Positions 17,075 through 46,728 of a stretch of 64,000 bases of DNA are shown here, piece by piece. The notes under the pieces were generated by a model. The model did not search any database, was not told the origin of the DNA, and saw only the letters and a list, made by a program, of their open reading frames with translations. The stretch comes from Parvibaculaceae bacterium Mf 1.05b.01. Its GTDB lineage: Bacteria; Pseudomonadota; Alphaproteobacteria; Parvibaculales; Parvibaculaceae. Location: NCBI GenBank assembly GCA_000509225.1, contig BAOK01000001.1, positions 1,116,001 to 1,180,000 on the forward strand. Direction: 5' to 3'. The stretch's first letter is position 1, and each line of letters begins with the position of its first letter. A program made the translations under genes and the position numbers.

Positions 17075-18214
17075 ATGAGCTCTTTTACGTATGACCTGTT
17101 GGCGGAAGATGGCGCAGCGCGGCGCGGCGTTATCCACACGCCGCGTGGCGACATTCAAACGCCTGCCTTCATGCCGGTCGGAACAGCAGGGACGGTTAAA
17201 GCGCTTTACACTGATCAGGTAAAAGAGACCGGGGCGGACATCGTACTCGGGAACACTTATCACCTTATGCTTCGCCCAGGAGCAGAAGAAGTTGCCGCAC
17301 TTGGGGGCCTTCATTCTTTCATGAACTGGCAGGGACCCATTCTCACCGATAGTGGCGGCTTCCAGGTTATGTCTCTGTCCAAACTGCGAAAAATGACCGA
17401 AGAGGCCGTCACTTTTCAAAGTCATATAGATGGATCCTCCTACGAGCTGTCACCTGAACGCAGCATTGAAATTCAGTGTCTCCTGGGAGCCGATATTCAG
17501 ATGGTCCTGGATGAGTGCACGCCGTTTCCAGCAACCCACGATGAAGCAAAATATTCCATGCACCTCTCAACGCGCTGGGCACAGCGGTCGAAGGATGCCT
17601 TCAAGGCTCAGGCGCACCGAAAGGAGGGGCAGGCTTTGTTCGGAATTGTACAGGGAAGCGTCTATGAGGATCTGCGCCAGACAAGCGCCTCCGCATTGCA
17701 GGAGATTGGTTTTGACGGGTACGCAATTGGCGGCCTCGCAGTCGGTGAGGGCCAGGAAGAAATGCTTCGCGTGCTCGACTTCACAGCACCCATGCTGCCC
17801 AAAGACCGACCACGCTACCTCATGGGTGTTGGCACCCCGGACGACCTGGTAGAAGCTGTCTCACGGGGGATCGATATGTTCGATTGTGTGATGCCGACCC
17901 GCTCGGGCCGTCACGGCCAGGCCTTTACTCGGTTCGGCAAAGTCAATCTCAAGAACGCAAGACACGCGAATGACCCTCGGCCGCTTGATGAGACAAGCAC
18001 GTGTCCTGCTGCGCGAGACTACTCACGGGCCTACCTGCATCATCTTCTGAAAAACGGTGAAATTCTCGGGATGATGCTGCTCTCTTGGAATAATATTGCC
18101 TACTACCAGTCGCTGATGGCGGATCTTCGAGGCGCCATTGCCGCCGGAGACCTCAGTTCCTTTGTCGCCGGATTCAAGGCCGAGCAGGCGGCTGGGGACC
18201 TGACACCGCTCTGA
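17075..18214 (+). CDS. tgt: tRNA-guanine transglycosylase
   Basis: Exchanges guanine-34 for preQ1 in tRNAs with GUN anticodons, the entry step to queuosine in tRNA. 379 residues with the catalytic aspartates in place: Asp92 in TDSGGFQ and Asp270 in [15 protein letters not shown]. The usual zinc site (C-x-C-x-x-C plus a later His) is eroded: the segment reads STCPAA at 308-313, keeping only Cys310, and the later His position reads [10 protein letters not shown], with Asn. Downstream the transcript may run into the DUF2920 gene, but a small inverted repeat intervenes. Confidence 0.97.
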
Positions 18215-18253
18215 ATGCACGCGCGTTAAGGCTGTGTTTACCATGTGGGTGCC

Positions 18254-18290: not shown

Positions 18291-19505
18291 ATGCCAAGCA
18301 TTTCAGGCAGCTTAAGTGGACATGAAGACTTCGAACTCGGTATTCCGCGAAAGGTCCCTGTGACTTTTGAGGCTGAGATACCAGACAATGGTCCTGCAGA
18401 CGGGCTTGTTTTCCTTATCCCAGGTTTCGGCGAAGACACGGACGAAGCTTATACCCGCCTCACACGAAGACAGATTGCTGCGAAACACAATTTGGTGGTT
18501 GTTTCCGTTCGCGCACATTGTCACTTCTGCCGGCCAAAGCAGTCTATTCCCGGCGTCGCTGTCTCGATCGAAATTGATCCATGGTCCATTGCCAAAGTGA
18601 TCGGCGCACTGGTCCTCCAGGGAGACAGCTTGGACGGCCTGCGTTCAGCGGAAGAAAAAGACGCGCTTAGATTTCTGAAGTCCCGCAAAGACCACAAATT
18701 TTCCCTCTCTGCCGCCCTTATTCCGCCAGGCGAGGACTACCAGAATTTCGGCGTGCTCGCCGCATTGGACCATCTTTTGGTCCTGAACAAGCTGATCGAT
18801 GATGGCGTTGAGTTTGATCATGGCAACATCATCGCAGCGGGTACTTCTCACGGTGGCTACATTGCCCATCTGATGCAAAAATTCGCGCCAAATACAATTT
18901 CGGCGGTCATTGAATCCTCTGCCTATCCGGAAACCCTTCCAGCATATCTTGGTTTTGGCGGCGTTGAGTACAGAGCCATCGACGGAAACATTGAGTTCGT
19001 CTGTTCCACGAAAACCGCATGGAGCAACGAGAATATCGGAGCCCCGAACTATTTCGGCAGCGATCAGGCCCGAATCCGCAATGTCTGCGATCCAGATCAT
19101 CTGGAAACGGCGCGCGGAGCCAGCGGTTCCAGAAAGACGCAGTTTCGAATGATTCACTCAAGCCGAGACAGGCTGGTCAACATCGACCTGAAGCGCCACC
19201 AATCCAATGTTCTTAGGAGCTGCGGTTTTGACGCTGATCTTCAGGTCGTTGACGAGGCAGATGTGGACGGAAAGGTCATTACGACGCTTGACCATGGATT
19301 GGGCATCGGACTTCATAGTCTTTTCGACCGGTTTTATCCCTCGCTCATCAGGAAGCCAGCTCCGACAGACCGCGACCTGAAAACCAGGCTCTGTTTTGCA
19401 GGAAACCGCACCAATTACGTGGTTGACCATGGTCGGTCCGGTGTAACTGCCAGCATCTCAGCCAATTCACATGAACCAGCGAAAAGTGACGCATTATCTG
19501 CCTAA
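18291..19505 (+). CDS. DUF2920-like alpha/beta-hydrolase-fold protein, copy 1
   Basis: 404 residues from the ATG at 18291. Earlier in-frame ATGs at 18234 and 18243 exist, but the chosen start gives the same length as the paralogue at 22756 and matching N-termini. Shared features are an FLIPGFG loop, HCHFCRP, a PPGEDYQNFGVLAALDH stretch, the nucleophile-elbow GTSHGGYIAH (Ser186), an acid in MIHSSRD and a final His in DHGLGIGL, which together give a plausible Ser-Asp-His triad. The pattern matches DUF2920, the '617 family' of the Campylobacter flagellar-glycan locus, from memory. No signal peptide. Function is unknown; hydrolysis or transfer of an acyl group from a carrier protein to a sugar is an inference from the FAAL and ACP genes nearby. 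Follows tgt on the same strand. Confidence 0.85.
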   Translation: MPSISGSLSGHEDFELGIPRKVPVTFEAEIPDNGPADGLVFLIPGFGEDTDEAYTRLTRRQIAAKHNLVVVSVRAHCHFCRPKQSIPGVAVSIEIDPWSIAKVIGALVLQGDSLDGLRSAEEKDALRFLKSRKDHKFSLSAALIPPGEDYQNFGVLAALDHLLVLNKLIDDGVEFDHGNIIAAGTSHGGYIAHLMQKFAPNTISAVIESSAYPETLPAYLGFGGVEYRAIDGNIEFVCSTKTAWSNENIGAPNYFGSDQARIRNVCDPDHLETARGASGSRKTQFRMIHSSRDRLVNIDLKRHQSNVLRSCGFDADLQVVDEADVDGKVITTLDHGLGIGLHSLFDRFYPSLIRKPAPTDRDLKTRLCFAGNRTNYVVDHGRSGVTASISANSHEPAKSDALSA

Positions 19506-19520
19506 TTTGGCGCTATTTGG

Positions 19521-19549
19521 TTGACCAAGCAGGCTGGTATGACTAGGTT
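19521..19549 (+). promoter_or_regulatory. Candidate promoter of tRNA-Lys
   Basis: TTGACC, a 17-base spacer, then TAGGTT. The -35 is good and the -10 poor; the tRNA begins 35 bases later, after a small CGGGG/CCCCG hairpin at 19563-19576. Confidence 0.25.
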
Positions 19550-19583
19550 CCGCCGGTCTCGTCGGGGGTTTCCCCGATTCAGA

Positions 19584-19659
19584 GGGCCCTTAGCTCAGTT
19601 GGTAGAGCGGCTGACTTTTAATCAGTAGGTCGCAGGTTCGAATCCTGCAGGGCTCACCA
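19584..19659 (+). tRNA. tRNA-Lys (anticodon UUU)
   Basis: Full cloverleaf: acceptor GGGCCCT/AGGGCTC, D-arm GCTC...GAGC, anticodon stem GCTGA/TCAGT with loop CTTTTAA (anticodon TTT), T-arm GCAGG-TTCGAAT-CCTGC, and discriminator A with an encoded CCA. A T-rich stretch follows. It sits inside the accessory block between the first DUF2920 gene and the YHYH gene. I found no duplicated 3' end that would mark an integration site. Confidence 0.97.
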
Positions 19660-19761
19660 TTTTTCTATAGACATCCACCGCTGCGTTTGATGCCGCTCTG
19701 GCGACCGGTTGGTCGCTGACGCGCGTATAATTGGTCATCATCAGCAATCTGGGTCTGATCC

Positions 19762-20715
19762 ATGCGCGCCTTTTTCTCCGTCTCAACAATCCTTCTTCTG
19801 CTCGTCTCGACTGCCGCCGCTCACACCGTGGACCTTACGTCGCTCCCTCTCGCGGATGGCGAGGTCTCCAGTGAACCGCGCGCTGGTTCGGTGTTTGCCT
19901 GCCAGACTCGCTTCAATCCGAACGCGCCCGGCGCCCAGCGGTCGGGCGATTGGCTTAACGAAACAGCCGGGACCTTCGATCTCACCCGAAAACCCACTGT
20001 CGACGGGAACGTTGTTCACCTCTCAGAGCTTGATATCGCGATTGCGGGTACACGGCGCCTGATAAACGGCAATACGTTGCCGGACCATCCAACCGGCCAG
20101 TTCCCCGTCTCCCGCTCTGATGACGCATTTTATTATGATCGCAACCCCAACACGATCCGCGCACACGCTTTCTCTGTCTCCTTGCCAACCAACCCAGCTA
20201 TCGCGGAGCGTCCATCGTGCCTGCCAATGGGCGCTATCGGGATCATGCTGACCGGCGCTGTGCTGTTTAACGCTCTTGATGCACGGGGCGAAAATGCGCT
20301 GGCGCACGAAATTCTGGATAATTGTCAGGGCCACCCTCAGCGAAGTGGTCTCTATCATTACCATGGCAAAAGCCCCTGCCAGAATGACCCCGCAGCAGCA
20401 ACAGAACATTCCACCCTCATCGGATACGCGCTCGACGGTTTTGCAATCTACGGCTATCACGGGGAAGGTGGTGTCTTGCTCACTAGCAGGGACCTGGACG
20501 AATGTCATGGGCATGTGGGTCAGGTCATGCTCGAAGGTGAGATGCAGACGATCTACCACTATCACGCAACCCCTGATTACCCGTACACGCTTTCCTGCTT
20601 TAAGGGGGACCCGACCTCCATTGCGGGTCTGTCCGGGAGCGCCAGACGCGCCGGTCCAGAAGGCCCAAGACGCGGCGACAGGTTTGATCGACCTCCTCCT
20701 AGGCGCCCGAGATAG
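19762..20715 (+). CDS. Exported YHYH-domain protein
   Basis: 317 residues starting with a clear signal peptide (MRAFFSVSTILLLLVSTAAA), so it is exported. Two copies of the YHYH motif are visible, in GLYHYHGKSPC and TIYHYHATPDYPY, which identify the YHYH domain, of unknown biochemical role. Several Cys residues flank them. The last 25 or so residues are rich in Arg, Pro and Gly (ending FDRPPPRRPR). It follows the tRNA-Lys by about 100 bases and precedes the acyl-AMP ligase by 86 bases. Whether it belongs to that pathway is unclear; His-rich motifs could bind metal, but that is inference. Confidence 0.88.
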   Translation: MRAFFSVSTILLLLVSTAAAHTVDLTSLPLADGEVSSEPRAGSVFACQTRFNPNAPGAQRSGDWLNETAGTFDLTRKPTVDGNVVHLSELDIAIAGTRRLINGNTLPDHPTGQFPVSRSDDAFYYDRNPNTIRAHAFSVSLPTNPAIAERPSCLPMGAIGIMLTGAVLFNALDARGENALAHEILDNCQGHPQRSGLYHYHGKSPCQNDPAAATEHSTLIGYALDGFAIYGYHGEGGVLLTSRDLDECHGHVGQVMLEGEMQTIYHYHATPDYPYTLSCFKGDPTSIAGLSGSARRAGPEGPRRGDRFDRPPPRRPR

Positions 20716-20801
20716 GCCCAAGGTAGGCGGGTGCGTTTACCAGAAATTTACCCTGTTTCTATGGAATGCGAAGGAGTCCTTAGCGTCCCGTAGGATACGC
20801 C

Positions 20802-22496
20802 ATGCCGTTGCTGTCATTCTGGAAGAAGTACGAGCGAGATACGGTCTCGCAGCGTATTCTCGAACGCCTGGAGCAAACGCCAGACCGTCTATATGCCCGT
20901 GTTCATGCAGGGGAGGCGACACACTCCATTAGCTATCGACGCCTTGCCGAGGGCGCTGCGCCCTATGCAGCGGCTTGTGCGAAGGCCAACCTTGCTGCCG
21001 GCGACAGAGTCGTGGTGCTGAAAGAGCAGGGGCCTGATCTTCTTTACGCCTTTTTTGGTGCAATTTTTGCGGGAGCCGTGCCCACTATTTTGGCCCCTCC
21101 CAGCCCCAGACAAGATCCTGCGCATTTCTGGCGTGGACATCGTGAAGTCATGGAGCGTATTCGCGCTCAACTCCTCTTCACGACTCCAAAACTCAAAACA
21201 GAGCTCAACAGCTTCCCAACAGGGCATGACATCGCTGCGGTTACGGAAGAAGATCTTCCGTCCGCTTCCAAATTGCTGATACCCGACACCTGCTCACAGG
21301 ATGTCGCCTTCCTACAGCACAGCTCAGGAACGACGGGTACGAAGAAGGGCGTCATGATTTCGCATGCGGCGCTTCTGCACCAGGTCGATGCATATGCCAA
21401 GCGTCTCGGTGTTAGTGAAGAAGACCATATTGTTAGCTGGCTGCCGCTTTATCACGACATGGGTCTCATCGCATGTTGCCTATTGCCTGTGTTAACCGGC
21501 GTTCCGGTCACCATGATCAGCCCATTTGAATGGACGATGCGTCCAACCCTTTTGTTTGACCTGATCGAACGCACAAAAGCGACACTTGTATGGCAGCCAA
21601 ACTTCGCCTTCCAACATCTGATCAACTGTGTCCGACCAGATGACGATTGGGATCTCTCTTCAGTTCGGGCCTTTATAGATTGCTCCGAACGGTGCCGCCC
21701 GGAAACGCTCGATCAATTTGCCTCCAAATTTGGAGCTATGGGTGTCAGAAAATCTTCTCTGCATACCTGTTATGCCATGGCAGAAACCGTGTTTGCGGTG
21801 ACCCAGAGTGAGCCGGGTACTGCGCCGCGGACAGAAACAATCGATACCCAAGCGCTCATCGATGATGGCGTTGCACGGCCGACACTCGACATGCATGCGA
21901 CAACAAGCTCGGTACTATCCTGCGGAAAGCCTATAGAGGAAATCACGGTCCTCATAATGGATGAAGAAGGGAACCGTTTACCCGATCGCAGGATTGGGGA
22001 AATCTGCGTCAGTGGTCCCTGTCTTGCCCGCGGTTATGATCGACAGCCGGAAAAATCGAGTCAGGTTTTTCGGGAAGGCTGGTACCACACACGCGACCTT
22101 GGATACCTGTCTAACGGTGAGTTATTTGTCACCGGTCGCATTGACGATCTGCTGATTTTGAATGGGCGAAATCATTATGCGCATGATCTGGAATTTTCTT
22201 TGCGCGATACATCGGGCATCGTTCCCGGACGTGTGATGGCATTCTCAGAATACCGCGACGACCTGGGCAGTGACGTCTTGATTGTCCTCGCGGAAACACG
22301 AGAGACTGACGCTGCAGCTCTGAAAACAATCAAGAAGAACATTCGCGACACGATGCTGGATGAGACAGGACTGGTTCCGGCCTCTATCCATCTGTTTCCG
22401 CTCATGTGGTTGATTAAAAGCACAAGCGGCAAGATCAGCCGTGAAGCAACAGCGAATAAATACAACTCTCCCGCACTGGAAGAAGGCCTTACATGA
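20802..22496 (+). CDS. Fatty-acyl-AMP ligase-like adenylate-forming enzyme
   Basis: Predicted to activate a carboxylic acid as its adenylate and load it onto the carrier protein encoded next. 564 residues. The ATP-binding loop is SSGTTGTKKG (174-183), the FAAL-style motif SWLPLYHDMGLI follows at 212-223, then CYAMAET, the TRDLGY region and the C-terminal STSGKISR with the catalytic Lys near 543. The SWLPLYHDMG motif and the adjacent ACP favour FAAL over acyl-CoA synthetase. The ATG has AGGATACG upstream. The stop overlaps the ACP start by four bases (ATGA), so translation is coupled. The acid could be a fatty acid, hydroxy acid or amino acid; the analogous Campylobacter gene was annotated as an amino-acid-activating enzyme. 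Confidence 0.92.
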   Translation: MPLLSFWKKYERDTVSQRILERLEQTPDRLYARVHAGEATHSISYRRLAEGAAPYAAACAKANLAAGDRVVVLKEQGPDLLYAFFGAIFAGAVPTILAPPSPRQDPAHFWRGHREVMERIRAQLLFTTPKLKTELNSFPTGHDIAAVTEEDLPSASKLLIPDTCSQDVAFLQHSSGTTGTKKGVMISHAALLHQVDAYAKRLGVSEEDHIVSWLPLYHDMGLIACCLLPVLTGVPVTMISPFEWTMRPTLLFDLIERTKATLVWQPNFAFQHLINCVRPDDDWDLSSVRAFIDCSERCRPETLDQFASKFGAMGVRKSSLHTCYAMAETVFAVTQSEPGTAPRTETIDTQALIDDGVARPTLDMHATTSSVLSCGKPIEEITVLIMDEEGNRLPDRRIGEICVSGPCLARGYDRQPEKSSQVFREGWYHTRDLGYLSNGELFVTGRIDDLLILNGRNHYAHDLEFSLRDTSGIVPGRVMAFSEYRDDLGSDVLIVLAETRETDAAALKTIKKNIRDTMLDETGLVPASIHLFPLMWLIKSTSGKISREATANKYNSPALEEGLT

Positions 22497-22759
22497 CATC
22501 GACCGACGAGACATTTGGACGGGTTTGTTCGGTCATCGCCGCCGAACTTGGCTGCCTTGAATCCGACCTCAGCGCAACAACAACGGCTGAAGATGTGGAT
22601 GGGTGGGACTCTCTTGCCCATGCCCGTTTGATTATGAGCTTAGAAGACAGGCTCAGCATCCGGTTTCCAGGTGAAAAGCTATTCGATCTGGACTGTATTG
22701 GTGATCTCGTTTCCCTAGCTGATGAAGCCTTGGCGCCAAACGAAAGCAAACACCTGTGA
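22493..22759 (+). CDS. Acyl carrier protein
   Basis: 88-residue discrete carrier protein. The phosphopantetheine attachment Ser is Ser40 in DGWDSLAH, with the acidic helix-rich surroundings of the family (LSIRFPGEKLFDL). It overlaps the FAAL-like gene by four bases upstream and the second DUF2920 gene downstream (GTGA), so the three form a tight translationally coupled operon. It is a pathway-dedicated carrier rather than the housekeeping AcpP, because of its sequence and location. Confidence 0.93.
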   Translation: MTSTDETFGRVCSVIAAELGCLESDLSATTTAEDVDGWDSLAHARLIMSLEDRLSIRFPGEKLFDLDCIGDLVSLADEALAPNESKHL

Positions 22760-23973
22760 CATCGCGTCGTTTTGAAATTGAGGGACAGCCGGATTTCGAA
22801 CTTGAGACCGAACGAAAAAAGTCGGTGGCTGTTATTACGGAAGTTCCCGACTCGGACGTAGCCGATGGTCTCGTCTTTATCATCCCGGGCATGGGTGGAG
22901 AAAAGGACGCAAATTATTCCGCAATGCTTCGGCGCTACATATCCGCAAAATACAACCTCATTGCAGTCTCGGTCGACGGGCATTGCAATACCTGCCGCCC
23001 AGCGCGATCAACTGAATTTGGCGAAGTCGGCTTAGAGATTGAGGGAGAATCCTTACTCGATGCTGTGAGTCGGTATGTGATCTCTGGCGAAAAAATTGAT
23101 CGGACACTAGAAACTCACGCAGACATTTTGCAGATGCTGCAGTCTGCATCTCCAAAACAATTTGCCGTCAAAGCTTTACTCAATCCACCTGATGGCCAAT
23201 ATCAAAACTTTGGCGTCCTGTCGGCGTTGGATCATTTGCGTGCACTGAACGCGCTGATAGATTCTGACCTCTCATTTGATGAACATAACGTGCATTGTGT
23301 GGGATCGTCTCATGGTGGATACATTGCCCATATGATGCACAAGTTTGCGCCCAACAGCTTCAACGGGATCATTGATGCATCTGCCTATACCGAGACGGCG
23401 ACAGCCTTTATCGACGGTAGCTGGAAAGAAGCCAATATCACAGACGGCAACCTCATCTATACGTGCTCCACACGACAAAAGTGGCAGTTTTCAAATCCCG
23501 GTTTGCCAACTTTCTTCGGGCCGGACCGGTCTCTCATCCGAGATACGGCCTATGACGTTCATATGAAGTCAGTCGCCGCAGCTGCAGCTCGAAAATGCCA
23601 GTTTCGCATGATTCACTCGACCATCGACGCCGTGTCGTCTCCTGAACTCAAACACCGTCAGGCAGAAATACTGCGCGATCTGGGCTTTGACGCCTCTCTG
23701 GAAATGATCACTTCCGATGCCGTGGACGGAAAGTTCATCAAGTCAGCAGACCATGGGATGGGGATCGCGCTAAATCTCCTCTTCGACCGGTATTACCCAA
23801 CGATCGAACGCCGTGACGGCGTCACAGACCGCGAGCTAGAAACAGCGCTCACATTCGACGGACCGAAATACAGCTATCGGATATCTCATCAGTCGTCGGG
23901 GATGCCGTTAGCAGCGACATGCGAGGCGCGGTCGCCTCTCAGCGGAGAAGCAGTTGATCGCCTTGCCAGCTAG
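22756..23973 (+). CDS. DUF2920-like alpha/beta-hydrolase-fold protein, copy 2
   Basis: 405 residues starting at a GTG that overlaps the ACP stop. Clearly paralogous to the protein at 18291: shared DFEL near residue 13, VADGLVFIIPG, HCNTCRP (77-83), PPDGQYQNFGVLSALDH (144-160), GSSHGGYIAH with the elbow Ser at 185, MIHSTID and ADHGMGIAL. The conserved Ser, Asp and His give a plausible catalytic triad. No signal peptide or membrane segment. Being fused by coding overlap to FAAL and ACP genes, it likely handles the ACP-bound acyl group, as a thioesterase or an acyltransferase to a sugar; this is inference. It converges on a SPOR lipoprotein gene with nine bases between stops. Confidence 0.87.
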   Translation: MTSRRFEIEGQPDFELETERKKSVAVITEVPDSDVADGLVFIIPGMGGEKDANYSAMLRRYISAKYNLIAVSVDGHCNTCRPARSTEFGEVGLEIEGESLLDAVSRYVISGEKIDRTLETHADILQMLQSASPKQFAVKALLNPPDGQYQNFGVLSALDHLRALNALIDSDLSFDEHNVHCVGSSHGGYIAHMMHKFAPNSFNGIIDASAYTETATAFIDGSWKEANITDGNLIYTCSTRQKWQFSNPGLPTFFGPDRSLIRDTAYDVHMKSVAAAAARKCQFRMIHSTIDAVSSPELKHRQAEILRDLGFDASLEMITSDAVDGKFIKSADHGMGIALNLLFDRYYPTIERRDGVTDRELETALTFDGPKYSYRISHQSSGMPLAATCEARSPLSGEAVDRLAS

Positions 23974-23982
23974 TTCGGAAGA

Positions 23983-24579
23983 TTAACGTCCTTCAAGTGG
24001 AACGACCTGACACCAGATGCCCCGATCCTTCAGGCTCGCGCAGCGGCTTTCTGCAGCGGCCGGGTCAACAGGTCCAGCCACAAGACGTCGATAGAGACCG
24101 TCATGAGCGCTCCGATAGTCCACCACTTTGAGATCGAGATCCGCCAGCAGATCACCATGTCCCGCTACAAGTTCATTCCACCCGCGCTTAACGTTCTCTG
24201 TGTCGCGATAGGAGGCAAGGTGAATACCAACGGACGGAAAGGCTGTCGCGGTTGGTGGGGTGTAAGCGGCGACATCAGCAGATTCTGGTGAAATCGATGC
24301 AGTGATCGGACCAAATGCCCCTTCAATTGCCTGCAGGCGCGCTTCAATACCGTTTTCAGATGATACGATCCGTTCCATTGATGGTCGGACAACAGAGTAA
24401 TCGATCCTTAGTGTCGCCAGGTCCCGTTCCAGGCGCTCGACGCGCTGTTCGAGCGTCTCCTGTGCGCCGGGTGTCTGCCCTTGTGTCGTGCTTGATAGGG
24501 TGTTTCCACTAGGGCCAGCGCATGCAGCAAGTCCAACCGCAAGGCATCCAATCAGGAGGTAATTGGGCAGAGATCGCAT
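23983..24579 (-). CDS. SPOR-domain lipoprotein
   Basis: 198 residues from the ATG at 24579. The signal sequence ends in a lipobox LAAC with the lipidated Cys at residue 20, so it is an envelope lipoprotein. A coiled-coil-like Glu/Arg/Leu stretch (LEQRVERLERDLATL) follows, then a linker rich in Ala/Thr/Pro, and a C-terminal SPOR-type repeat (VGIHLASYRDTENVKRGW ... YRRLVAGPVDPAAAESRC). SPOR domains bind denuded peptidoglycan at division sites, but this copy may have another role. A longer ATG start at 24627 would add 16 polar residues ahead of the signal peptide, so I rejected it. Confidence 0.88.
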   Translation of the reverse strand: MRSLPNYLLIGCLAVGLAACAGPSGNTLSSTTQGQTPGAQETLEQRVERLERDLATLRIDYSVVRPSMERIVSSENGIEARLQAIEGAFGPITASISPESADVAAYTPPTATAFPSVGIHLASYRDTENVKRGWNELVAGHGDLLADLDLKVVDYRSAHDGLYRRLVAGPVDPAAAESRCASLKDRGIWCQVVPLEGR

Positions 24580-24898
24580 TGTTTGTGTTCTCCGTCGGGA
24601 CATTTGTCCAATCCCCAAATTCATCATTTGCTATCGACATGCACTCGGTGATGAATACCGGCGCGAAACCCAAGGTTCTGGGTAGAGTGAGTCGCGTATG
24701 CGGTCAAATTTCGCAGTCCCCAAACACACTCCGCCCAGTTTGCAGGCATTCCGCTTAATATTTCGTCAACCATGTTGCTGGGGAGCTCAAGAAACGCGCA
24801 GTGTGCCTCGCGGTAAGCGTCCGGCCCGACTTTTGCTCTTGTTTGCTCGACAAGATGTTCGAGCCTCAGGGCCGATTACGGGGATTGGAAAACAGACA
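24580..24898. other. Non-coding divergent gap
   Basis: About 320 bases between the SPOR lipoprotein and a small membrane protein on opposite strands. It should hold both promoters. An in-frame extension of the downstream gene runs through part of it, but its translation (Arg, Cys and Pro rich, no homology) looks non-coding. I see no strong hairpin or repeat. Confidence 0.5.
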
Positions 24899-25271: not shown

Positions 25272-26936
25272 GTGGCAAGTGCAGATCCACATTCCAGTCT
25301 CAGCGAAACGAACAGACATTGTGTCGTCTTAGGTGGCGAAAGAGGTGATCCGGAGGAGATTGCCAGCGCGGCAGCACAGATGGGTTTCGCAGACGCTCAG
25401 GCATTCGACGCGGACCAATGGTTTAGCGCTCCACTTTCGGCGCCAGCGCATGTAACCCCCATAATCGTTCTTGATGCGGCAGAGGGTATTGGTGATCAGG
25501 ACAGGCATTTTGCGCGACAGGTGAAATTCCTGGATCTCGGAGCCCCCGTTGTGCTCGTCGCTAACCTGGCACTGATCGGGTATGAGCAGGAACAGTTCGA
25601 GCTGATACAAGAAGAATTCCAAGACGTCCTATCAGCGGTAAATCTCACGCCCTCCTATTTTGGCCCACTTCCGCTAGGACGGCCCGATCTCATTCCATGG
25701 TGGCAAGACAATGGTTCTCTAGCCGCACGGCGGACGTCATCGGTGGCTGCATCACCGCCTCCGCTGCGCATGAAAGTTATCTCTTCCACGAACGATGACG
25801 GTAGGTGGATTGTCACCGGAAAAACAATCTCTGGCGCAATAAGCGCTGGCGATGAGATCTTGTGCTCACCCTCCAACCAACTAAGCGTGGTCGCAAGTGT
25901 TGAAGAAACAGAAAAGGATGTGCTGAAGCTTACGTTCGACACGCCTCACTTTGCAGAGCCCGGCGAGGTTGTTTCACATCAGGAAAAGCCACCGATTGAG
26001 ACCGATGTCTTCAGGGTAAAGGCTATATGGCGCGCCGACCAGCGGACACAGGGTGACGGGGTGTTGGTCGAAACATCTTATGGCCGCACGCAAGGCACGA
26101 TCCAGTCTGTTGAGCAGATCTTATCACCCTCGACATTCAAAACAGCGCCCGACACGGAAATCGCCAATGGCGCCCTCGTTGAAATCATTGTGCGCGTCGA
26201 CAACGTCATCGCACTTGATCACATCGGAAATTTGCCGCATGCGGCGGAGGTTACACTTCTAGAACCGAACCAGGGTTCTGGTTTGCTAGCGACCGGCTAC
26301 ATCTCGATGGAAGGTTATGCAGACCAGCGGCATTTGCTGACCTCAAAGGCAGTCAACACAACTCCTATTGAATTCTCAGTTGGCGAGTCCGACCGATCCG
26401 CGAGAAATGGTCATGAAGGCGGGGTCCTTTGGTTTACAGGTCTGTCTGGCGCTGGCAAATCGACACTTGCCGTTGCATTAGAAGCGCGTCTCTTTGAGAA
26501 AGGCTACCAGGTCTTCGTGCTGGATGGAGACAATGTCCGACAGGGCCTTACATCAAATCTGGGCTTCTCGCCTGACGACCGTTCAGAGAATATTCGGCGG
26601 GTAGGGGAAGTGGCAGCGCTCTTTCGACAAGCTGGCGTTATCGTAATCTCTTCGTTTATCTCACCCTACCGATCTGATCGAGACAGGGCGCGACATGCCG
26701 CCTATTCCTCCTTCCACGAGATCTATATCAAAGCAGACATTGAGACCTGTATCGATCGCGACCCAAAGGGGCTCTATGAGCGGGCCCTCAAGGGCGAGAT
26801 CCCGGACTTCACCGGCATCTCAGCCCCGTATGAGGCACCTGACGCACCAGAACTGGTGGTGGATACGGGCGCCGCGACCATTGACGCCTGTGTTGAAAAA
26901 CTCGTTAATTACGTAGATAGGAACTTCCGGGTATAA
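25272..26936 (+). CDS. Degenerate CysN-like / adenylylsulfate kinase (CysC) fusion
   Basis: 554 residues from a GTG. Residues 385-554 form a complete APS kinase: P-loop GLSGAGKST (390-398), DGDNVRQGLTSNLGF, active-site Ser464 in SFISPYRSDRDR, and DPKGLYERALKGEIPDFTG. The upstream 380 residues resemble the CysN/NodQ sulfate-adenylyltransferase large subunit with its GTPase ruined: no G1 P-loop, and the NKxD motif reads VANLALIGYEQEQFE (95-109) where CysN has NKMDL. The two beta-barrel domains (about 165-365) seem retained. So the kinase is probably active, making PAPS (or phosphorylating a related nucleotide), and the front part is structural. No cysD lies in the window. Upstream DNA is AT-rich. 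Confidence 0.85.
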   Translation: MASADPHSSLSETNRHCVVLGGERGDPEEIASAAAQMGFADAQAFDADQWFSAPLSAPAHVTPIIVLDAAEGIGDQDRHFARQVKFLDLGAPVVLVANLALIGYEQEQFELIQEEFQDVLSAVNLTPSYFGPLPLGRPDLIPWWQDNGSLAARRTSSVAASPPPLRMKVISSTNDDGRWIVTGKTISGAISAGDEILCSPSNQLSVVASVEETEKDVLKLTFDTPHFAEPGEVVSHQEKPPIETDVFRVKAIWRADQRTQGDGVLVETSYGRTQGTIQSVEQILSPSTFKTAPDTEIANGALVEIIVRVDNVIALDHIGNLPHAAEVTLLEPNQGSGLLATGYISMEGYADQRHLLTSKAVNTTPIEFSVGESDRSARNGHEGGVLWFTGLSGAGKSTLAVALEARLFEKGYQVFVLDGDNVRQGLTSNLGFSPDDRSENIRRVGEVAALFRQAGVIVISSFISPYRSDRDRARHAAYSSFHEIYIKADIETCIDRDPKGLYERALKGEIPDFTGISAPYEAPDAPELVVDTGAATIDACVEKLVNYVDRNFRV

Positions 26937-42173: not shown

Positions 42174-43292
42174 CTACCTTTTCCAGAAAGTATCGATTCT
42201 GCGCGAAATGTCTGCACGCAGGTTCATGTGAAACAGATTGTAATCGTAGATGTGATAGTCACCGCCAAAGGCACCATAGGTGAAGCCGTCATCATCGTCT
42301 GGGGGCGTCACGATGAGCATCCCATCATTGCATGCCGCACCTGTTGCTGCCGGTCGAAGAGGTCGAACCGTTTCCTCGCTATCCGCGAAAGGCTGCGCAC
42401 CCAGATTTGCGCTTGCATCCGCAGCTCCGCCCAGACTTCCCGTGATCGGATTGACACAGGCGATCTTACGACCGTTGATGTGTTGAAGCTTGCCATCAAT
42501 CCAAATTTTTGTCGTTTCCTTCCACCCCATGGTTTCAGCCTCAGACGTGACAGAGTTCCAATTCAGGTAACAGCCGGTCGTATAGGCTTCCTGGCAAGGC
42601 CTCACACCCTCAGCGCCCAGCTCCTCTGGGATCGAGAAACCGACAAGGTAGGCCGCCACCATTCGGTTGGCGAGATTGGTCCCTGCGATTTTCTCCTGAA
42701 GCAGTTTCATGCCATGCAGAGACCCTTGGCTATGTGATGCCAGAATAAACGGGCGGCCCTCATTCAAATTCTCGATGAAATGGTCAAACGCGCGCGCAAC
42801 ATCGCCGTACGCAAACTCGAGAGCAGCGTAGGCATCCGGCTCTTCGCCCATAAAGGCGTAGAGCGTCGCCTGTCGATAGCGCGGGGCGAACACGCGAGCA
42901 TTGCTGTTAAACACCGCCGCCTGGTGACGCAGAACACCGTCCTCAAGAAAATCTTTTGTTTCGCCCGGCTCGTCATAGCGAGCGTTCCACATGTCATCCT
43001 GGTAGTAGGTCGTGGGGTGAACAAAAAAGACATCAACCACTGCCGTGTCCTGTCCGTTCTGGGCACCACTTTCAGGCGGTACCACGTCCGCCTTGTCATC
43101 TGTCGTTGGCAGAGCCGCCCAGCTATCGGCCTGCGCATAATCAGGGGCGGGAGGCACATTTGCCACATCAAAGGCAGCGGACGGTTTCAGAAAGAGGCGC
43201 TGACCAAGTTTTGGGTTGAGATAAAGCGTCAGCGCGCCGACGGCGGCAATCACAACCAACCCGGCAATTCCGTAGAAAATCTTCTTCAACAT
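42174..43292 (-). CDS. DUF3089 family protein, membrane-anchored hydrolase-like
   Basis: 372 residues. A single N-terminal hydrophobic segment (about 4-26, IFYGIAGLVVIAAVGALTLY) could anchor it in the inner membrane. The rest matches DUF3089 (VDVFFVHPTTYY ... RQATLYAF ... ILASHSQGSLH), an alpha/beta-hydrolase-like family whose Ser in SHSQG would be the nucleophile. It follows the enoyl-CoA hydratase-like gene by 17 bases on the same strand, so it is probably the last gene of that operon. An esterase role is plausible but unproven. Confidence 0.9.
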   Translation of the reverse strand: MLKKIFYGIAGLVVIAAVGALTLYLNPKLGQRLFLKPSAAFDVANVPPAPDYAQADSWAALPTTDDKADVVPPESGAQNGQDTAVVDVFFVHPTTYYQDDMWNARYDEPGETKDFLEDGVLRHQAAVFNSNARVFAPRYRQATLYAFMGEEPDAYAALEFAYGDVARAFDHFIENLNEGRPFILASHSQGSLHGMKLLQEKIAGTNLANRMVAAYLVGFSIPEELGAEGVRPCQEAYTTGCYLNWNSVTSEAETMGWKETTKIWIDGKLQHINGRKIACVNPITGSLGGAADASANLGAQPFADSEETVRPLRPAATGAACNDGMLIVTPPDDDDGFTYGAFGGDYHIYDYNLFHMNLRADISRRIDTFWKR

Positions 43293-44512: not shown

Positions 44513-45514
44513 TCAGTCCGCTGCCAGAAGGTACAAAAGGTCGATTTCGGTTTCCGACGACCGTCGACCGATGGCGGCCCGTTCAACGGACCGGTCCATA
44601 CCCGTTTTGAAAGCTTCATACATTGTCGTGCACATGACACCCCATTTGAGCGTCCCGAGCACCTCCCAGAACTTCACCCGATCCGGATCAACCTTGGGCC
44701 CACCTGATGCCTCATACCCCGCAAACATATCCTTGCGGTCTCCGAATCCACCAACCGGCTTGTCGATGCCGCCAAAGCGCCAGGAATTCACGCAGATCCA
44801 ACCCATATCCTCCATGGGATCCCCCACATGGGCCAGTTCCCAATCAAGAATGGCTGACACGCCTCGTTTTGGATCGAACATGATGTTCCCGTTTCGGAAG
44901 TCTCCGTGCACGAGCGTCGACTGATCATCCGCTGGCACATTGTCGGACAGCCACTTAAACGCCAGATCGAAGACCGGGTGAGGATGACCATGGGTTTTGT
45001 AGACTTCGCGGTATCGCGCAATTTCTTCGATGGCGGGGGACAAGCGCAAAGGAGGGAGAGACGTTACCGGCACTGCATGAAGCTTTGCCAGGGCTTCACC
45101 GCATTGACGGGCGAGCTTCGGCCGGACTGAGGCAAAATCTTCGCTGCGCACGATCTTTGACCCAAGGGTCTCGCCGTGCACATGGTTCATGATAAAGCCG
45201 CTGCCAAGACCATCTGAGGGTGACGCCACATGTCGCACCGTCGGGACGACAACGCCAGCCTCCGCTGCCAGCTGAATCAGCTTGGCTTCTGTTTCCAGTC
45301 CCACCGCCGTTCCGCTTGCGTTGCCATCACCACCGCCGGGTGCCCGACGCAGGATCAAAGCTTCTGCCTCGCCGTCCTTGTGGGTTTTAAATGACCAGGT
45401 TTCCTGGCTCGCCCCGCCAGACAGGCGTTTTAGGTCAGTAATTGTGGCACCGCCGAAATGTTGCGCGGCCACCCTTGTCAGCCCTTCAGCCAATTCTTCT
45501 GCTGGTGTTGTCAT
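44513..45514 (-). CDS. Phosphotransferase family protein (ACAD10-type kinase fold)
   Basis: 333 residues with an aminoglycoside-phosphotransferase fold: the substrate/ATP loop RLSGGASQETW near the N-terminus, the catalytic loop LVHGDFRNGNIMF and the metal motif ILDWELAHVGDP. In animals and bacteria this subfamily is tied to acyl-CoA dehydrogenases and 4-hydroxy-acid metabolism. It is second in the operon after the DUF7064-like gene (two-base gap). The phosphorylated substrate is unknown. Confidence 0.93.
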   Translation of the reverse strand: MTTPAEELAEGLTRVAAQHFGGATITDLKRLSGGASQETWSFKTHKDGEAEALILRRAPGGGDGNASGTAVGLETEAKLIQLAAEAGVVVPTVRHVASPSDGLGSGFIMNHVHGETLGSKIVRSEDFASVRPKLARQCGEALAKLHAVPVTSLPPLRLSPAIEEIARYREVYKTHGHPHPVFDLAFKWLSDNVPADDQSTLVHGDFRNGNIMFDPKRGVSAILDWELAHVGDPMEDMGWICVNSWRFGGIDKPVGGFGDRKDMFAGYEASGGPKVDPDRVKFWEVLGTLKWGVMCTTMYEAFKTGMDRSVERAAIGRRSSETEIDLLYLLAAD

Positions 45515-45516
45515 GG

Positions 45517-46548
45517 TCAGAGAAGCCCGGATGGTTTGCCATCGATAATCTGGTCAAGATATTCCGACAGGCCATATCCCACATGTCCGTCGCAGCGATA
45601 CTCGGTCATGCCTTCCGTAATGCGCGTATTAAGTTGCTGGCCATCTGGCGTCTTGCGCCTATTCCGGAGCGGGATGAGAGAAAGAACCGTCCCGTCGACC
45701 GTGTAGGTAGCACCCGACTTGGTCTTTACGTCAGCCCGGAGCGACGTCTGGTAGAAGTTGTCGTCCCATTCGCTTTCGATTTTGACATGCTCGATCAGAT
45801 CGTAAGCACCATCTTTAAGAACCATGCCGCCATGGCGTTCAACGCCTTCCTCATTCGTCACGATGGAGATCATCATGCCAAATTCCCGCCCGAAGTTCAT
45901 CGGCAGCCAGCGATACCAATTGATCGCCTGCCAGTGGCGCGGTCCCCAGCTTTTGTCCCTCAGCCCAAAGCCTGAGACGGTCCACTCTTCATCGCCAACA
46001 GTGATTGTCCCGCTCGCCGCCATATGCTGTTCATAGTGAGCCTTGGCAAAAGACTTCTCAGGATCAATCTCCAGTGACGACCCATCCTCTTTCACGGTCT
46101 CACCTCCGAACATTGGCGAGACGCCCTCATAGTCGAGCGAAACTGTGCATGGCACTGTCGGATGGTCTTTAAAAGCTTGAGACGGGTTTGCCATGTCGAA
46201 GGGTTTATCGAGAAGCAGGACCTTGCCTTCGTATGTCACTTTCAGCGTCTTGAAAGGTTCAATAACATCCACCTTGAGACCACCTGCGTCCATGGCGTCA
46301 TTGTTTTCGATTTTTGGTCGCCCAAACATGAAGCCTACACGGCCATCTGGCAGATAGAGACAGGCTGAGGTCTCGGCATAATGTTCGTTTGGTCGGTTAC
46401 CGATGCGAAACCATCCGCCGACTTTTTGGTCGGGGTCGAACATGTTGAAATACATGCTTTCATTATAGTTCGCAGCGTTATCCGGCGTATGCGTGTACTC
46501 ATCCTCTGGATCAAGGCGCAGTTTGAGCCCTTTTGCCAATTCCGCCAT
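45517..46548 (-). CDS. Uncharacterised protein resembling DUF7064/7065 hydroxyneurosporene-synthase-like folds
   Basis: 343 residues from the ATG at 46548, chosen for a strong GGGAGGAAG site; a frame open to 46590 adds 14 residues. Beta-rich with conserved-looking segments NESMYFNMFDPD, GWFRIGNRPNEH, WTVSGFGLRDKSWGPRHW and WYRWLPMNFG. These resemble the family of beta-sandwich proteins often annotated DUF7064 or DUF7065, which I recall beside the same phosphotransferase genes. It is the first gene of a five-gene operon. No function assigned; the name is tentative. Confidence 0.75.
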   Translation of the reverse strand: MAELAKGLKLRLDPEDEYTHTPDNAANYNESMYFNMFDPDQKVGGWFRIGNRPNEHYAETSACLYLPDGRVGFMFGRPKIENNDAMDAGGLKVDVIEPFKTLKVTYEGKVLLLDKPFDMANPSQAFKDHPTVPCTVSLDYEGVSPMFGGETVKEDGSSLEIDPEKSFAKAHYEQHMAASGTITVGDEEWTVSGFGLRDKSWGPRHWQAINWYRWLPMNFGREFGMMISIVTNEEGVERHGGMVLKDGAYDLIEHVKIESEWDDNFYQTSLRADVKTKSGATYTVDGTVLSLIPLRNRRKTPDGQQLNTRITEGMTEYRCDGHVGYGLSEYLDQIIDGKPSGLL

Positions 46549-46728
46549 TTCTTCCTCCCGTTCCGTACTAATTATCTGGTTCGCGGACATCGGAGCTGCG
46601 TGGCCTGATCGCGCTCACTATCCCCGGTTGTTACAGGGTCGGGTCCTCTTGCCCGGAAATCACCCTATATTTCTGACATGAAACACCGTAAATGGTAAGG
46701 GTGACCTAGGGTTAGGTAGAGGCCAAAA

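Follow-up and report, generated by a model that had tools for sequence, protein, structure and literature searches.

A conserved operon for a fatty acyl-AMP ligase, an acyl carrier protein, and a DUF2920 protein in an alphaproteobacterium, and its likely role in acylating a surface sugar

The closest described relatives of the system reported here are the Cj0617-family ("617") genes of Campylobacter jejuni, whose products belong to the DUF2920 family and none of which has an assigned reaction. All five family members in strain NCTC 11168 contain homopolymeric tracts, and the phase states of Cj1305 and Cj1306 differ among flagellin mobility variants (PMC3068675). Across 16,130 genomes, the same two genes correlate with pse genes, and the authors describe them as putative transferases (PMC13130089). 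Furthermore, strains with different flagellar glycans differ in DUF2920 content (PMC7099621), and the groups present on the flagellar sugars of C. jejuni are acetyl, propionyl, N-acetylglutamine, and di-O-methylglyceric (PMC3958885). Here, we describe a module with two DUF2920 genes, a fatty acyl-AMP ligase (FAAL) gene, and an acyl carrier protein (ACP) gene in Parvibaculaceae bacterium Mf 1.05b.01, located at 18291-23973 of a 64,000-nucleotide stretch (assembly GCA_000509225.1, contig BAOK01000001.1, positions 1,116,001 to 1,180,000), hereafter the window.

The FAAL, ACP, and DUF2920b genes form a real conserved operon, far beyond chance, as the three genes occur together in 7/7 genomes of the genus. 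The operon most likely performs an ACP-dependent acylation of a surface sugar, which is probably a nonulosonic acid (NulO). More specifically, we propose that the FAAL charges the ACP and that DUF2920 then transfers this acyl load to a surface sugar, most likely a legionaminic-type NulO and probably on flagellins, and we assign this proposal a probability of slightly less than one half (about 0.48). The genes of the module are as follows.

18291..19505, + strand: DUF2920a, paralogue a (PF11144, 211 bits; Ser-Asp-His triad present)
19762..20715, + strand: accessory YHYH-domain protein (PF14240), between DUF2920a and the FAAL
20802..22496, + strand: FAAL (PF00501; nearest solved relatives are FAALs)
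22493..22759, + strand: ACP (PF00550, 32 bits), overlapping the FAAL and DUF2920b
22756..23973, + strand: DUF2920b, alpha/beta-hydrolase fold, proposed acyltransferase (PF11144, 205 bits; Ser185, Asp291, His333)

The coupling of the three genes, already described in a first-pass annotation made from the sequence alone, was found as stated: the end of the FAAL gene and the start of the ACP gene share ATGA at 22493-22496, and the end of the ACP gene and the start of DUF2920b share GTGA at 22756-22759. The FAAL-ACP overlap is also present in several congeners. Across the genus, identity to the window copies is 65-95% for the FAAL and 54-88% for DUF2920b. That annotation also correctly saw two paralogues of equal length (404 amino acids for DUF2920a and 405 for DUF2920b; the former would be longer if read from an alternative open GTG start at 18234), but its placing of the second copy 2.3 kb upstream was loose: from the end of DUF2920a (19505) it is 1.3 kb to the start of the FAAL gene (20802) and 3.25 kb to that of DUF2920b (22756). 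DUF2920a is absent from G008, and its presence in G007 could not be scored where the contig ends. The YHYH gene, which had gone unmentioned, was rejected as a core component because this position, occupied by YHYH in most congeners, holds an acyl-CoA dehydrogenase gene in G003 and nothing in G004. The G003 dehydrogenase (L031:9446-10648) could tailor an ACP-bound acyl group. An apparent frame break in DUF2920b of G004 was considered as phase variation and rejected, because the assembly has a stretch of N there.

The top PDB matches of the ligase are 3kxw, 7r7e-g, and 3pbk, aligned over nearly the full length with few gaps. It carries the motifs SWLPxxHDMGLI and GRNHYxxDxE and an SGK near its end, and it aligns through the FAAL insertion region, where the Campylobacter adenylation domain has a gap. 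It scores below every NCBIfam FAAL cut-off. By its sequence features, the ligase is a FAAL, predicted to form an acyl-AMP and to transfer the acyl group to an ACP and not to CoA. The phosphopantetheine site of the ACP is Ser40 within GWDSLAH (codon 22610-22612), and the protein resembles an ACP adjoining DUF2920 in Campylobacter (28% over 54 amino acids).

The assignment of both paralogues to DUF2920 was borne out by a hidden Markov model search, in which DUF2920a scored 210.8 bits (5e-62) and DUF2920b 205.1 bits (3e-60) against the Pfam family PF11144 (gathering cut-off, 24.7 bits), with matches covering model positions 2/6 to 361/365 of 400. A Ser-Asp-His triad with a GxSxG serine is found in both window paralogues and throughout the family (Ser185 in 87/87, Asp291 in 85/87, and His333 in 86/87 sequences). 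An AlphaFold2 prediction for DUF2920b, as the first-pass annotation had suggested making, gave a confident alpha/beta-hydrolase model (predicted local distance difference test [pLDDT], 89.8; predicted template modeling score, 0.90), which matches S9 peptidases of the prolyl oligopeptidase family (Z ~20) and feruloyl/cinnamoyl esterases. The predicted fold fits a serine acyl-enzyme and is compatible with transfer and hydrolysis alike.

The genome contains exactly two DUF2920 copies, both in the window. Within the family Parvibaculaceae, DUF2920 was found in 7/7 genomes of the genus and in 0/33 other sampled genomes; an even sample of the class gave clear matches only in the genus and in one further genome (G313), a sample of the phylum gave no further match above the cut-off, and a search of viral contigs gave no relatives. 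A scan of named genomes found it in Sterolibacterium, a Campylobacterales metagenome-assembled genome, Hydrogenothermaceae, Ferrimonas, and Phenylobacterium, and 56/200 Campylobacterota genomes have it above the cut-off. DUF2920 is therefore not Campylobacter-specific, contrary to a 2024 survey (PMC11878206), although it is rare outside Campylobacterota. In the DUF2920 tree, which was used for topology alone, the genus forms one clade (100/100) apart from Campylobacter and split into a and b, with DUF2920a in its own clade with the congeneric copies (99/95).

The link to NulO rests first on co-occurrence. NeuB was present in 13/13 DUF2920-positive genomes checked (seven congeners, G313, and G779-G783) vs 6/12 DUF2920-negative family relatives. 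In the window genome, NeuB at C2:564409 belongs to a legionaminic-type locus (LegC family at 502 bits vs a cut-off of 420; NeuB and NeuC families above their cut-offs), and flagellin genes with two tetratricopeptide repeat (TPR) proteins lie ~30 kb beyond it. Elsewhere, DUF2920 lies inside such loci: between NeuB and a CMP-sugar synthetase gene, ahead of Maf and flagellin, in Hydrogenothermaceae (L046); after a Maf gene and a few kilobases from NeuB in the Campylobacterales genome (L045); and flanked by genes for a TPR protein and NeuB in Sterolibacterium (L044, 9581-11179). The Sterolibacterium protein has a 140-residue N-terminal TPR-like extension, a description that depends on a weak TPR_19 match (E 4e-4) because the single-sequence fold gave a poor model (pLDDT 35.6). 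The NeuB and flagellin locus of G313 (L194:1-12600) also holds KAS III, Rieske oxygenase, ACP, SDR, GNAT, and PhyH genes, and the DUF2920-bearing Phenylobacterium genome has weak AMP-binding matches at L190:17573-19900, ~8 kb from NeuB.

Relatives of the FAAL outside the genus offer a second line of evidence. The nearest are 36-41% identical, and in three genomes of an alphaproteobacterial genus (g86) the FAAL is fused to a carrier and a C-terminal hexapeptide domain in proteins of 870-890 amino acids, shortly after genes for a PseC/LegC-type aminotransferase, an epimerase, a GNAT protein, and NeuB.

L216:7374-9989, L217:6641-9319, and L218:7003-9657: FAAL-ACP-hexapeptide fusions, close downstream of the NeuB cluster

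The hexapeptide part is similar to O-acetyltransferases of the maltose, galactoside, and polysialic acid types. These fusions strengthen the earlier suggestion of a pathway that would charge an acid on an ACP for delivery to a sugar. Among the other near relatives, a FAAL-ACP in G063 (L222) faces LegC-type and CMP-sugar genes; a FAAL-ACP protein in G160 (L221:4180-7029), with a C-terminal domain of ~290 residues lacking a Pfam match, adjoins TPR proteins, one of which has a TIGR04372 glycosyltransferase domain above cut-off; and a FAAL at L215 occurs together with polysaccharide pyruvyltransferase and WcbI genes.

To compare with Campylobacterota, we surveyed 55 stretches from 39 genomes with 70 full-length DUF2920 genes, using a neighbor radius of 6 kb. 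An ACP was found near 46/70 genes (at <=300 bases for 13 of them) and an adenylation enzyme near 31/70, and 19/39 genomes have both, in agreement with the statement in the first-pass annotation that Campylobacter places these genes by an activating enzyme and an ACP, although the counts are not independent because the genomes are related and largely represent one locus. This locus also holds several ACPs and FkbH (467.7 bits), KAS III, Antibiotic_NAT, GNAT, and methyltransferase genes. The activating enzyme is like a nonribosomal peptide synthetase (NRPS) adenylation domain or DltA, is 22% identical to the window FAAL, and is parted from the FAALs by a very long branch in a separate clade, so that one shared ligase type was rejected; the two systems therefore share their logic (activator, carrier, and DUF2920) but not the activator. 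Solitary DUF2920 genes at L131:9343-10584 and L134:9323-10585 adjoin formate dehydrogenase-like subunit genes, with no glycan gene near.

The module lies between two backbone genes.

17075..18214, + strand: tgt, left boundary, adjoining gyrA-coaD-ppi-ppi-queA in module-less outgroups
23983..24627, - strand: SPOR-like gene, right boundary, one small open reading frame (ORF) from tgt in sister genus g5

In g5 (L179 and L180), only the small ORF separates tgt from the SPOR-like gene, in the order gyrA-coaD-ppi-ppi-queA-tgt-ORF-SPOR-CysNC-galE-CapD-glmU-glmS. Because g5 keeps this order without the module, the block is most simply read as having been inserted between tgt and the SPOR-like gene, and the downstream sugar genes are unlinked to it; galE, CapD-like, glmU, and glmS were considered as a clue to the target and rejected as ancestral backbone of module-less genera, G038 and G039 also having the galE-CapD-glmU run but not the module. 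The base composition of the module matches that of the genome (GC content, 53.6% vs 54.7% for the window) and thus does not point to a recent arrival, and a recent transfer from Campylobacter is supported by neither base composition nor the DUF2920 tree. Therefore, the earlier idea of a portable pathway is more aptly expressed as one family that is repeatedly paired with different acyl-ACP suppliers. Downstream, a CysN-like/APS-kinase fusion (25272-26936), also conserved in sister genera, has a CysN profile match starting ~100 positions in, with the GTP-binding start apparently missing. Further away, a DUF3089 protein (42174-43292) lies near an APH-type kinase and DUF7064/DUF7065 genes (44513-46590).

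In the proposed mechanism, the FAAL would turn a free carboxylic acid into an acyl-adenylate and load the acyl group onto the phosphopantetheine at Ser40 of the ACP, with which it is co-translated. The acyl group would then be taken up by the Ser185 nucleophile of DUF2920b, and of DUF2920a in genomes that have it, for delivery to a surface sugar at either a hydroxyl or an amine. The likeliest acceptor would be the legionaminic-type NulO made by the window genome, probably placed on its flagellins, and it might be used unattached, as the CMP sugar, or in glycosylated flagellin. ACP loading, the direction of the DUF2920 reaction, the acceptor, and the acid are all inferred. A literature search excluding subscription papers and preprints found no publication joining FAALs to flagellin glycosylation.

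Several observations weigh against this proposal: (i) in its own genome, the module is separated from the flagellin and NulO loci by >500 kb; (ii) in L044, L045, and L046, neither an ACP nor a ligase was found next to DUF2920, so the family does not always come with an ACP donor; (iii) several Campylobacter DUF2920 genes are solitary and far from glycan genes (L131 and L134); (iv) Antibiotic_NAT and GNAT are further candidate acyltransferases in the Campylobacter loci, where the transferase role therefore need not fall to DUF2920; (v) the structural neighbors of DUF2920 are mostly hydrolases; and (vi) the association of near FAALs with NulO genes, in which NeuB or PseC-type genes lie by 4/8 near FAALs vs 1/20 more distant control FAALs, is suggestive only, as it comes from two lineages and amounts to 2/6 vs 1/20 per lineage (P 0.12).

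DUF2920 could instead be a hydrolase of the same pathway, either a type-II-like thioesterase clearing acyl-ACP or a sugar-deacylating esterase, with the transferase encoded elsewhere. Its best fold matches, being hydrolases and esterases, and its complete triad suit hydrolysis, and Antibiotic_NAT and GNAT could be the transferases in Campylobacter. However, the block of the window genus is without any other transferase, the FAAL-ACP relatives have a sugar O-acyltransferase-type domain after the ACP, and it would be unusual for an editing enzyme to come as two paralogues, which makes this reading unlikely in our view. Likewise unlikely is a transfer from the ACP to another target, such as lipopolysaccharide, capsule, a lipid, or a secreted product. 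The distance of the module from the NulO and flagellin loci, its position ahead of galE, CapD-like, and glmU/glmS genes, and the pyruvyltransferase and WcbI genes of L215 would all be in keeping with such a target, but the galE-CapD-glmU run is backbone, and NeuB is present in every DUF2920 genome checked, several of which have DUF2920 inside NulO loci. A peptidase- or amidase-like enzyme processing flagellin or an amino-acyl glycan, with the FAAL and ACP serving something else, would suit the S9 peptidase matches but is improbable given the overlapping reading frames in the window genus and the recurrence of ACP neighbors in another phylum. That the genes are chance neighbors, as the loss of DUF2920a in G008 and the changing intervening gene might suggest, is strongly disfavored by the overlaps and the conservation of FAAL-ACP-DUF2920b across the genus.

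If the proposed acyl transfer is correct, DUF2920 may, as a tentative generalization, represent sugar acyltransferases of a new, acyl-ACP-dependent family, and interchangeable cassettes of an activator (FAAL, NRPS-type adenylation domain, or FkbH), a carrier, and a transferase (DUF2920 or hexapeptide) might put varied acyl groups on flagellar NulO. The tract-free operon offers a clean three-protein system for assaying the DUF2920 reaction, makes the function of the family directly testable, and could help explain how unusual acyl groups such as propionyl, N-acetylglutamine, and di-O-methylglyceric acid reach flagellar sugars.

The known systems nearest to the module each share part of its design. 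FAALs feeding polyketide synthases (PKS), NRPS, or stand-alone ACPs (e.g., 3kxw, 3pbk, and FadD28/FadD32) share the near full-length alignment and the FAAL motifs, but there is no PKS or NRPS in the neighborhood of the module. The FlmG flagellin glycosyltransferases of Caulobacter, whose TPR domain binds flagellins (PMC7591256), are paralleled by the like-sized TPR proteins adjoining the window genome's flagellins, although the analysis showed no glycosyltransferase domain in these, and by the TPR-like extension of the Sterolibacterium DUF2920. The g86 fusions combine a FAAL ~40% identical to that of the window with a carrier and then an acyl-acceptor enzyme, with NulO genes adjoining; they differ in being one polypeptide and in ending with a left-handed beta-helix O-acyltransferase type of domain and not DUF2920, which in the window occupies the same post-carrier place. 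The C. jejuni family (Cj0617, Cj1305, Cj1306, Cj1310, and Cj1342) is 27% identical to the window DUF2920 over the full length, and in both cases the genome makes NulO and encodes, close to DUF2920, a carrier protein and an AMP-forming enzyme that activates an acid. The first-pass annotation called this the same combination, which goes too far: the Campylobacter ligase is of the NRPS adenylation domain/DltA type, and its DUF2920 genes lie inside the flagellin-glycan locus, on the strand opposite the ACP, whereas the window module is a co-directional overlapping operon distant from the glycan locus. Similarly, a G/C run of >=8 is found in 38/70 Campylobacterota DUF2920 genes, whereas the longest run in the module is 5, with no poly-G/C phase-variation tract. 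Therefore, the window module is a variant of the Campylobacter 617-family theme and not the same module.

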